A DNA stretch of 38,289 bases, taken from the NCBI GenBank assembly GCA_028289565.1, contig JANQPE010000130.1, forward strand, positions 1 to 38,289. The letters run 5' to 3'. The notes beneath the pieces are model-generated. The model had not been told where the DNA came from, searched no databases, and worked only from the letters and a program-made list of their open reading frames with translations. The position numbers and the translations under genes are program-made. This stretch comes from Parerythrobacter sp. GTDB taxonomy: Bacteria; Pseudomonadota; Alphaproteobacteria; Sphingomonadales; Sphingomonadaceae. This document shows, one piece after another, positions 26,234 to 31,799 of this stretch. Position 1 is the stretch's first letter; the number at the start of each line of letters is the position of its first letter.

Positions 26234-27556
26234 ATGGCCGACACCAACCTCATGCCTATCCCCGGACAGGTGGATCCGGTGCCCGTTGCGCGCGATATCA
26301 CGCCACGCCTTGACGGCCGCGTGGACCTGCTCGGCCTGCCCAAGGCCCGCATTCGCACGCTGTTCGAAGAGGCCGGGCTCGATCCCAAACAGGCCAAGCT
26401 GCGCGCCAAGCAGGTCTATCACTGGCTCTATCATCGCGGCGTGACCGATTTCGAGGCGATGACCGACCTCGCCAAGACAATGCGCCCGTGGATGGCGGAG
26501 CGGTTCGTGGCGGGGCGACCGCATGTGGTCGAAGCGCAGCATTCAACCGACGGCACGCGCAAGTGGCTGCTGCGGACCGAGGACGGCCACGATTTCGAAA
26601 TGGTCTTCATCCCCGATGCCGATCGCGGGACGCTGTGCGTTTCGAGCCAGGTCGGCTGCACGCTCAATTGTCGCTTCTGCCATACCGGGACGATGCGGCT
26701 GGTACGCAACCTCACGCCCGGCGAGATCGTCGGCCAGGTCATGCTGGCCCGCGACGCGCTGGGCGAATGGCCGAATGCCGCCACTATTCAAAAACCCCCG
26801 TCATCCCGCCGTAAGCCGGAGTCGGGTCCCGACACGTTCGAACAGACCGACAGCGATCCCGGCTTTCGCCAGGATGGCGATAATCACGACGAGGCGCGCG
26901 AAACCGAATATCGCGCCGATGGCCGGCTGCTGACCAATATCGTGATGATGGGCATGGGCGAGCCGCTCTACAATTTCGACAATGTCCGCGACGCGCTGCG
27001 CCTGGTGATGGACGGCGAAGGCCTGGCCCTGTCCAAGCGGCGGATCACGCTGTCGACCAGCGGCGTGGTGCCGATGATGGAGCGCTGCGGCGAGGAAATC
27101 GGCGTGAACCTCGCGGTATCGCTCCATGCGGTGACCAAGGAGATTCGCGACGAACTCGTACCGCTGAACAGGAAGTACGGCATCGAGGAACTGCTCGCGG
27201 CATGCGCTGCCTATCCCGGCTCCTCCAATGCACGCCGGATCACGTTCGAATACGTGATGCTCAAGGATACCAACGACAGCGACGAGCATGCACACGAACT
27301 GGTCCGGCTGATCAAGCGGTTCAGATTGCCCGCCAAGGTGAACCTGATCCCGTTCAATCCATGGCCCGACGCAGCTTACGAATGCTCCGATCCCGAGCGG
27401 ATAAAGAGCTTCTCCGACATAGTATTCGCAGCCGGAATTTCCGCACCCGTGCGCACACCGCGCGGGCGCGATATCGATGCCGCCTGCGGCCAACTCAAGA
27501 CCGCTGCCGAAAAGAAAAGTAGGGCGCAGCTCGACCGGGAAGCGATTGGAAAGTAA
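26234..27556 (+). CDS. rlmN: 23S rRNA (adenine2503-C2)-methyltransferase / tRNA A37 methyltransferase RlmN, with an in-frame insertion
   Basis: Radical-SAM motif [42 protein letters not shown]-terminal DIDAACGQL cysteine. Confidence 0.96.
26800..26878. repeat. Palindromic repeat element embedded in frame in rlmN
   Basis: Arms GTCATCCCGCCGTAAGCCGGAGTC (26800-26823) and GATCCCGGCTTTCGCCAGGATGGC (26855-26878) are imperfect inverted copies; internal perfect palindrome GTCGGG-T-CCCGAC (26821-26833). Confidence 0.75.
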
Positions 27557-27657: not shown

Positions 27658-29067
27658 ATGCGCCGCGTACTTATAGTCATGGAAAATGAGGATGCATTGG
27701 TTGAAAGCGCATCCGACTCTGCTTCGCTGCAGGTTGACGATGAAACCGGCGACATCGATGTCGAGGCATATGGTTACGAATCCACGCGCTCGATAGCTTC
27801 CGCCAGCAAACAGGCGGCCGAATTGCCCGCCAACATGATGATCGACGACACATACCCTGCCGTTCCCATAGGCGATGGCAAAAGCGACCAGGGCTTCGCT
27901 GCGGTCGAACCCAGTGAATCCGCCAATTTCGTCGTCAGGGCCGTTGTCCCGGAAGAGATAGCGATGGAGGGCTATGTCAACGGCAAGCCGGTATATTCGG
28001 ATATCGATATCGCCGCCTTTCCGATATGCCCCGGCGACCCGGCTCATGGCGACGCCGATGATGTCCGCACCTTGCACAACATGGCAGCCGTTCATGCGCG
28101 GGGCCATCGGGGCGACAGGGTGGCAGTCGCGATCATGGATACGGGTATTTCAGCCGCCCATCTGACCGGACTGGGCCTTCCCAATTCAGCCGTCGACCGG
28201 TCGGTTCTCTGGAACCCGATAGAAATGATCGTCCGGCAGGGACGGGCAATCCCCGCCGGCGGACATCCGGCCGGCCATGGTACGATGTGCGCGTTCGACG
28301 CGCTTATAGCCGCTCCGGAGGCGCGGTTGCTCGATTATCCGATCATCTCGCAAATGGGTGGTGCCGGAGGCAGTTCGATCATGGCCGGCGCCTTGTCCGA
28401 TGCCCTCAAGGCCTATTCGGATCTGGAAGCGTTCTGGAGTGTTTCGTTCGGGCCGAACCGCCAGAATTACGATTCGCTGGTCGTCAACAACAGTTGGGGT
28501 GTCTACCATCCTGACTGGGATTTCGCCGAAGGGCATCCGGGCCGGTATATCGACAATCCCGATCATCCCTTCAATCAACGCGTGGCCAGCCTTGCCGCGC
28601 GTAACGTCGATATCGTCTTCGCGGCCGGGAACTGTGGTAGCGAGTGTCCTGCGAGCAAGTGCCATGGAGTCGTTACGCACAGTATCCGGGGAGCCAATGC
28701 CCACCACGATGTGCTCACCCTTGCCGGAGTCGACGTCTCCGGGGGACGGATCGGCTATTCCTCCGAAGGACCTCCCATTCCCGGCATGGGAGCGGACGAA
28801 AAACCCGATCTGGCATGCGCCACCCATTTCCAGGGATCAAACGTAGGCGGCTTTCCCGATAGCGGAACCTCAGCCGCCTGTCCCGTGGCGGCCGGGTGTG
28901 TCGCCGCATTGCGAAGCGGCATGCCACAGAATACGCTCGCTTCGTCAGCGATGTTCGACGCACTGCGCCAAACCACTCAAGAAGCCCAGGCCGGAAGCGA
29001 CTGGAACCCGCAGAACGGCTTCGGTATCGTTGACATGGATGCTGCGGCCAACCATCTCGGTATATGA
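27658..29067 (+). CDS. S8 family (subtilisin-like) serine peptidase without a signal peptide
   Basis: Catalytic Asp (VAIMDTGIS), His (GHGTMCAF), oxyanion Asn (FAAGN), Ser (SGTSAACPVAAG); SD AGGGAGGT upstream. Confidence 0.92.
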   Translation: MRRVLIVMENEDALVESASDSASLQVDDETGDIDVEAYGYESTRSIASASKQAAELPANMMIDDTYPAVPIGDGKSDQGFAAVEPSESANFVVRAVVPEEIAMEGYVNGKPVYSDIDIAAFPICPGDPAHGDADDVRTLHNMAAVHARGHRGDRVAVAIMDTGISAAHLTGLGLPNSAVDRSVLWNPIEMIVRQGRAIPAGGHPAGHGTMCAFDALIAAPEARLLDYPIISQMGGAGGSSIMAGALSDALKAYSDLEAFWSVSFGPNRQNYDSLVVNNSWGVYHPDWDFAEGHPGRYIDNPDHPFNQRVASLAARNVDIVFAAGNCGSECPASKCHGVVTHSIRGANAHHDVLTLAGVDVSGGRIGYSSEGPPIPGMGADEKPDLACATHFQGSNVGGFPDSGTSAACPVAAGCVAALRSGMPQNTLASSAMFDALRQTTQEAQAGSDWNPQNGFGIVDMDAAANHLGI

Positions 29068-29327
29068 CTATGTGCAAGGCCGAACACGATTGGATGCTGG
29101 TAACGGTAAAGTTGGCCGCCAATGCCGAGCTGTCGCATGCCGCGGCGAAGCTCGGTGTTTCGATGGAAAATCTCGATCCTGTCTACGGCCTGGTAACCGT
29201 CGACATCGAGCACCATGTCTTCGCCTGCAGAGTCGATGCGGCAGCTCTAGCCAAGGCTTTGCCCGATCAGGACTATTCACGTGAATTCAAAGGCCCGTTT
29301 TCGGATTCCAGGATCGATACATTCTAG
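29064..29327 (+). CDS. Small 87-aa protein translationally coupled to the S8 peptidase
   Basis: ATGA start/stop overlap at 29064-29067; compact sequence MTMCKAEHDWMLVTVKLAANAELSHAAAKLG...HVFACRVDAAALAKALPDQDYS; terminator directly downstream. Confidence 0.8.
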   Translation: MTMCKAEHDWMLVTVKLAANAELSHAAAKLGVSMENLDPVYGLVTVDIEHHVFACRVDAAALAKALPDQDYSREFKGPFSDSRIDTF

Positions 29328-29334
29328 ACAGGAT

Positions 29335-29359
29335 ATCGCCCCTCTGCAGGGGCGATTTT
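29335..29359 (+). terminator. Rho-independent terminator of the S8 peptidase cassette
   Basis: ATCGCCCCT CTGC AGGGGCGAT TTT, 9-bp perfect stem. Confidence 0.8.
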
Positions 29360-31004: not shown

Positions 31005-31753
31005 CCGGTTCCATCAAGCGTCGCGGCGTTCTTGCCGGAATGGGCGCCCTGTTCGTCGGCGCCTGCTCCAGGATCGCCGATACCGGTGCCGGGTCCTCGC
31101 TCCTGTCGGCTGCCGAAGACTGGCATCGCAAGGTGCACCGCCTGCTGGCGAGCCGCGAGGCACTCGCGCCCGAGTTCGCCAAGGCCGACATTTCGCCTTT
31201 CTTCCGCGGCAATGGCTCACAAACTGTCGATACCGAGGCCTATCGCGCATCGGAAGCCAACGGTTTTGCCGACTGGCGGCTCGAAGTGCGCGGGCTGGTC
31301 GATACGCCCCTGTCGCTCAGCATGGAGAATATCCGCCGTCTGCCACAACGCACGCAGATCACCCGTCACGACTGCGTGGAAGGATGGAGCGCGATAGGCG
31401 AATGGACCGGGCCGCAGCTATCGACGCTGCTCGACGCGGCAGGAGTCCGGGAAGAAGCGAAGTTCATTGTCTTTCACTGCGCCGACAATCTCAACGGGCA
31501 GGATTATTACGAGAGCGTCGACATGATCGACGCCTACCATGCGCAAACGATCATCGCGCATATGCTGAACGGCGAACCGCTCCCAGCCCGCAACGGTGCA
31601 CCGCTGCGCATGCGGATCGAGCGACAACTGGGCTACAAGCACGCCAAGTACCTGACCGCCATCGAAGCCGTGGCGAATCTGGAGGGGATCGGGGAAGGCA
31701 AAGGCGGTTACTGGGAAGACCGCGCCGGCTATCAGTGGTATGCCGGAATCTGA
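31001..31753 (+). CDS. Molybdopterin-dependent oxidoreductase (sulfite-oxidase/YedY-like fold)
   Basis: N-terminal RRGVLAGMGALFVGACS (Tat/lipobox-like); WRLEVRGLVDTPLSLSMENIRRLPQRTQITRHDCVEGWSAIGEWTGPQLSTLL; ATGA overlap with the cytochrome gene. Confidence 0.92.
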   Translation: MTGSIKRRGVLAGMGALFVGACSRIADTGAGSSLLSAAEDWHRKVHRLLASREALAPEFAKADISPFFRGNGSQTVDTEAYRASEANGFADWRLEVRGLVDTPLSLSMENIRRLPQRTQITRHDCVEGWSAIGEWTGPQLSTLLDAAGVREEAKFIVFHCADNLNGQDYYESVDMIDAYHAQTIIAHMLNGEPLPARNGAPLRMRIERQLGYKHAKYLTAIEAVANLEGIGEGKGGYWEDRAGYQWYAGI

Positions 31754-31761
31754 TTCGGGCC

Positions 31762-31787
31762 GTCATCCCTGCTTTCGCTGGGATGAC
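31762..31787. repeat. Dispersed palindromic repeat between convergent genes
   Basis: GTCATCCC TGCTTTCGCT GGGATGAC, 8-bp perfect outer stem. Confidence 0.65.
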
Positions 31788-31799
31788 AAGAACGGATGA

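Follow-up and report, generated by a model that had tools for sequence, protein, structure and literature searches.

The two-gene cassette and its surroundings

The stretch of DNA analysed here (38,289 nucleotides of a Parerythrobacter sp. contig; henceforth the window) contains two overlapping genes on the forward strand. The first, at 27658–29067 including the stop codon, encodes a leaderless S8 subtilase of 469 amino acids with a Pfam match, an AlphaFold2 model and homologues across many phyla. The second, at 29064–29327, encodes a protein of 87 amino acids which belongs to a family of 44 members and is homologous to the N-terminal, or cis, prodomain of the protease. The stop codon of the protease gene overlaps the start codon of the small gene in the sequence ATGA at 29064–29067. 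The coordinates and lengths of both reading frames and their overlap had been given in an earlier note on this DNA and proved to be exact. The note also ascribed to the pair its own AT-rich upstream region, and the GC content of the intergenic DNA upstream of the protease gene is indeed 34% against 61% for the whole window.

A hairpin with a short T-run lies 3′ of the second gene at 29335–29356 on the forward strand, and the segment 29325–29365 folded with −18.6 kcal/mol. A terminator had been placed at 29335. The hairpin found there is strong but its T-run amounts to four bases and the terminator scan did not score it, so the hairpin is regarded as a plausible terminator only.

An all-against-all comparison of open reading frames across the loci found no third gene conserved around the pair. 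In one close relative (L075), rlmN, an SDR gene and a cytochrome b gene are contiguous without the pair between them and thus the pair in the window occupies an otherwise empty site. The rlmN gene of the window (26234–27556) carries an in-frame insert of ∼33 residues (about residues 183–215; window positions 26780–26890) without a counterpart in most relatives, and two relatives align to rlmN without a break. In sequence the insert resembles a palindromic element of the dispersed, REP-like kind, and a stretch reading ‘VIPAFAGMT’ near 31750–31790 is similar to it.

The protease and its N-terminal domain

The protease matched Pfam Peptidase_S8 (PF00082) with an E-value of 4.5e-13 and a score of 49.6 bits, the gathering cut-off being 21.8. 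The Asp/His/Asn/Ser catalytic set read from the sequence in the earlier note was recovered in an alignment of 51 homologues: Asp161 (28138–28140) and His207 (28276–28278) are invariant, and the oxyanion-hole Asn325 (28630–28632) and the Ser405 of GTSAACP (28870–28872) are conserved in at least 90% of the rows, all four codons being on the forward strand. With this score and this set of residues the protein is assigned, from its sequence, to peptidase family S8. The nearest NCBIfam model was that for the T7SS mycosin, TIGR03921, but the score of 43.8 bits is far under the equivalog cut-off of 278.75 bits and this identity was rejected. The absence of a signal peptide was upheld by a hydropathy scan, crude in its choice of starts and not a trained predictor, which saw no such hydrophobic N-terminus in the window or in the family. 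The protease is probably cytoplasmic.

The AlphaFold2 model of the whole protease had a pLDDT of 87.9 and a pTM of 0.92. Residues encoded by 27658–28023 (forward strand) form a propeptide-like domain in the model, beginning with a strand at 2–9 and a helix at 12–22 and continuing to a strand at 90–97, a helix at 99–104 and strands at 110–114 and 117–119. The best PDB match of the model in Foldseek was 3whi, unautoprocessed pro-subtilisin E, and the fifth was 3afg (ProN-Tk-SP); another match, 8jmw, was set aside as it aligned to the catalytic domain only. As modelled, the N-terminus of the protease is a divergent cis prodomain of I9 topology preceding the catalytic domain. The earlier statement that there is no clearly recognisable I9 propeptide therefore holds for Pfam, which gave no I9 match at the N-terminus, but not for the structure.

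The junction between this domain and the catalytic domain contains the motif PVYSDIDIAAF (27988–28020, forward strand), which begins 50 residues ahead of Asp161, a spacing that is constant in relatives. The motif also matches a profile made solely from the tails of the small proteins. In the window protease, a proline follows the putative P1 residue of the cis domain, and cleavage of the domain would therefore be disfavoured. Intracellular subtilisins (ISPs) are defined by a short propeptide of 16–20 residues with a LIPY/F motif (PMC6220982); an ISP identity was rejected for the window protease since an N-terminal domain of ∼120 residues, not such a short propeptide, precedes the catalytic domain.

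The small protein and its C-terminal tail

Forty-four homologues of the small protein could be aligned across many phyla and, because of this conservation, the 87-codon frame is counted as a real gene. It matched no Pfam, NCBIfam or PADLOC family, and a Pfam I9/propeptide match was found for none of the 44 members. The AlphaFold2 model, built with the 44 homologues, predicts a folded β-α-β-β-α core at residues 10–65 (29091–29258, forward strand), mostly with pLDDT >90. The six-element β-α-β-β-α-β fold proposed from the sequence thus stands for its first five elements, which are confidently predicted, but not for the last strand, which together with the tail is unformed in the monomer model. 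A Foldseek search of the PDB with this model gave nothing at E<0.001 and no significant I9 match; the weak matches were mostly ferredoxin-like folds, and two subtilase entries, 3t41 (EpiP) and 8c4x_B, ranked high among them. The corresponding search of viral structures was uninformative. PDB entry 8vd6, a match to the small-protein profile, was discarded as a repeat protein in which one helix was matched.

The C-terminal tail, GPFSDSRIDTF in the window (29292–29324, forward strand), shows the strongest conservation in the family, with the consensus GPFSNPxIEPF, and has low pLDDT in the monomer model. The window protein terminates at the Phe of the tail and most relatives extend beyond it, typically with Gly-Pro-Pro.

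Homology of the small protein to the prodomain

A hidden Markov model built from the small proteins alone found matches in most partner proteases, located N-terminally and immediately ahead of the catalytic domain, at the same model positions. As an iterated model may have taken in protease N-termini, the test of homology was repeated without iteration. Sequence-level E-values went down to 3.5e-6 and scores for a single stretch up to 16 bits; shuffled sequences reached a maximum of 4.7 bits, so that the stronger protease matches lie above all shuffles and the weaker ones, in several relatives, at the shuffle level. Comparison of the small-protein family with the protease prodomain by hhalign gave a probability of 93.5% and an E-value of 2.3e-7, in an alignment that starts near residue 31 of the small protein and runs through its second half to the C-terminus.

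The motif [YF][SA][DN]xxIxP is common to the tail of the small protein and to the junction of propeptide and catalytic domain and, placed side by side, the tail GPFSNPxIEPF resembles the junction GVYADxxIEPx. When a profile made from the tail only was run against 50 proteases, it scored highest at the cis junction in 33, and as a rule the site preceded the catalytic Asp by exactly 50 residues. In the other 17 the top score fell within the catalytic domain on a conserved stretch, GNYSDNPNHPF, which was treated as a chance resemblance, mimicry being the alternative. Its counterpart in the window, GRYIDNPDHPF (28540–28572, protease residues 295–305), is highly conserved.

Judged by these comparisons, the small protein is a stand-alone relative of the cis prodomain. 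The idea in the earlier note of an I9 propeptide-like partner acting in trans is largely supported, by the homology to the cis prodomain, by the predicted core and by the co-occurrence described below, with two amendments. The protease keeps its divergent cis prodomain and so the small protein would duplicate rather than replace it. Secondly, given that no I9 model matched and that Foldseek returned nothing significant, the link to I9 rests mainly on the homology to the cis domain.

Distribution and co-occurrence of the pair

A profile made from three proteases was scanned over 84,980 species and gave 54 loci. One was a distant archaeal subtilase and three broke off within the protease or at its end, leaving 50 which could be evaluated. 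The partner was present at 43 of these (one of them, L032, with the partner cut by the contig end) and also in the window and in one further relative. In almost all cases it follows the protease on the same strand, at a spacing ranging from overlap to about 220 bp. The order is reversed in L044 and L046, where the partner is upstream; in L044 an ATGA overlap joins the stop of the partner to the start of the protease. The partner is therefore no read-through tail. An earlier scan of contigs with the single protease as query gave no matches.

Searches starting from the small protein led to the same pairing. Among 301 genomes of the same family the small protein was found in three and the protease in the same three, adjacent and in the same order but with different flanks. 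A blind search of 399 genomes of the phylum with the small-protein profile gave four matches, every one beside a protease. Thus the co-occurrence, which the note had proposed to survey, is conserved and the pair is a real, widespread two-gene module.

The hosts belong to about ten phyla (Alpha-, Gamma- and other Proteobacteria, Actinomycetota, Bacteroidota, Acidobacteriota, Nitrospirota, Nitrospinota, Gemmatimonadota, Chloroflexota, Verrucomicrobiota and Myxococcota), though many are metagenome-assembled genomes for which single taxon assignments may be wrong. Erythrobacter sp. NAP1 and Streptomyces griseoruber are cultured hosts of the pair. Phyla are intermixed with strong support in the protease tree, in keeping with horizontal transfer. 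The distances among proteases and among partners are correlated (Mantel r = 0.59, permutation null maximum 0.26), in part reflecting shared ancestry. The same pair was found by HMM on a Streptomyces akebiae plasmid; a plasmid search with the window's small protein as query gave no matches. Viral contigs yielded distant S8 proteins only, without the partner.

The seven proteases lacking an adjacent partner come from Devosia, Bradyrhizobium, Lysobacter, one gammaproteobacterial metagenome-assembled genome and three Nonomuraea (L031, L036 and L053). Two of these Nonomuraea genomes, G304 and G306, hold a second, paired protease (L068 and L067, respectively), and one small protein might serve two enzymes in such genomes.

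Proposed mode of action

The best explanation, which we hold to be fairly probable, is that the pair forms a mobile, self-contained cytoplasmic protease/inhibitor module in which the tail of the small protein lies in the active site. The subtilase is predicted to be made with its own N-terminal propeptide-like domain, and coupled translation would deliver the inhibitor together with the enzyme. The core of the small protein would pack against the catalytic domain at the site of the cis prodomain, and the tail, [YF][SA][DN]PxIEPF, would occupy the non-prime substrate sites as a cleaved propeptide does. In the propeptide of subtilisin BPN′ the P1 residue is Tyr77. Asp71 of the same propeptide caps helices (PMC6993865). 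By analogy, the conserved D/N of the tail would fall near the helix-capping Asp71, with Ile as P4 and Phe as P1; these residues stand six, three and zero residues from P1 in an ungapped alignment to BPN′ made by hand and not computed. The end of the window's small protein at this Phe would then mimic a processed propeptide. After processing or displacement of the cis domain, the protease would stay off until a signal removed the small protein. On this model the small protein is a likely inhibitor of the protease.

The coupled translation and the strict linkage of the two genes would also suit an assembly partner, and the small protein may instead act mainly as a foldase in trans with inhibition incidental, since I9 prodomains commonly both fold and inhibit, as established for subtilisins BPN′ and E (PMC6993865). 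However, the protease already has a cis prodomain, and the part of the partner that is most conserved is the tail, which enters the active site in known propeptides. We consider a mainly folding role rather unlikely, although a chaperone activity in trans would be compatible with the inhibitor model.

A patchy, mobile two-gene cassette with overlapping genes and a leaderless enzyme also recalls toxin-antitoxin or abortive-type systems, in which an unstable small protein would restrain a harmful protease that is freed under stress or infection. Against this, no PADLOC family was matched, a family member found no match in 50,697 phage records, the loci share no further gene and the cis prodomain would already limit activity. 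Such a role is decidedly unlikely, and membership of a known anti-phage defence system was ranked low.

PatA-type subtilases cleave precursor proteins to release a peptide. It is very improbable that the small protein is likewise a substrate whose tail is cut off as a signal or RiPP-like peptide. A leaderless subtilase does adjoin a small protein whose short C-terminal tail is left unpacked in the monomer model. However, the tail keeps its sequence in about ten phyla, whereas a core peptide or species-specific signal would vary; it recurs as a motif in the protease's own prodomain, and the neighbourhood has no conserved modifying enzyme or transporter.

The inhibitor model may be extended to a widespread but rare and horizontally moving cytoplasmic protease with two locks, a cis prodomain and a homologous trans prodomain, released by a signal, possibly serving as a suicide or stress switch and undescribed in bacteria. 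In this full form the proposal is tentative and rather doubtful.

Comparison with known systems

The closest analogue of the bacterial pair is Plasmodium SUB1-ProM, a stand-alone I9-type propeptide mimic that acts as an inhibitor of SUB1 and whose gene neighbours subtilase genes (PMC6993865). In both cases a free-standing propeptide-like protein accompanies a subtilase which also keeps its own propeptide, and a C-terminal tail is proposed to enter the active site. SUB1-ProM is eukaryotic, acts in the parasitophorous vacuole and is a proven inhibitor, whereas the pair described here is bacterial, leaderless and a two-gene unit, and its partner, a likely inhibitor, is related in sequence to the prodomain. 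Yeast PBI2, Pleurotus POIA1, Arabidopsis SPI-1 and Toxoplasma MIC5 are further small stand-alone inhibitors resembling subtilisin propeptides (PMC6993865). They are eukaryotic, while the bacterial partner has no Pfam I9 match and is gene-linked to its target.

A comparable bacterial case is Bacillus Isp1/IspA, an intracellular subtilase whose inhibitor, IPI (BsuPI, PF12690), is a separate protein, but IPI is Ig-like in fold and, in complete genomes, is not encoded near a subtilase gene (PMC3901451). The ISPs carry a propeptide of 18 residues in place of the whole prodomain of the window protease. In Serratia, protealysin and emfourin, also an intracellular protease and its small inhibitor, are encoded in a coupled gene arrangement. 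Protealysin is an M4 metalloprotease and its inhibitor is unrelated; membership of that system was rejected as the partner here is an S8 serine protease.

No description of a gene-linked I9-type pair in bacteria was found in the open-access PubMed Central literature. Fungi, plants and apicomplexan parasites are known to have stand-alone propeptide-like subtilase inhibitors, for which convergence has been given as the explanation (PMC6993865). A free partner which is homologous in sequence to the prodomain of its target and is linked to it in about ten phyla would make it possible to study directly how a cis propeptide becomes an inhibitor in trans, and suggests how bacteria may hold a subtilisin safe inside the cell. 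A likely function can now be named for the partner family, which is absent from Pfam and whose member on the S. akebiae plasmid carries the annotation ‘hypothetical protein’ in the RefSeq-based record that was checked.

Cysteine residues in the protease

Cysteines C124, C326, C330 and C335 are conserved in at least 90% of the proteases, and C211 and C408 are also present. The conserved residues lie at the propeptide junction and beside the oxyanion Asn in GNCGxxCPxGxC, and they are a possible redox or metal switch in a cytoplasmic protease. The window's protease is without the C-terminus of a long subclass (L014, L020, L024, L026, L034, L058 and others), which consists of a Pro-rich linker bearing D[IF]CRR[FY]PxLC motifs and ending in CxC, as in GGCGCGG, DCGCN and HPCKCTGT.
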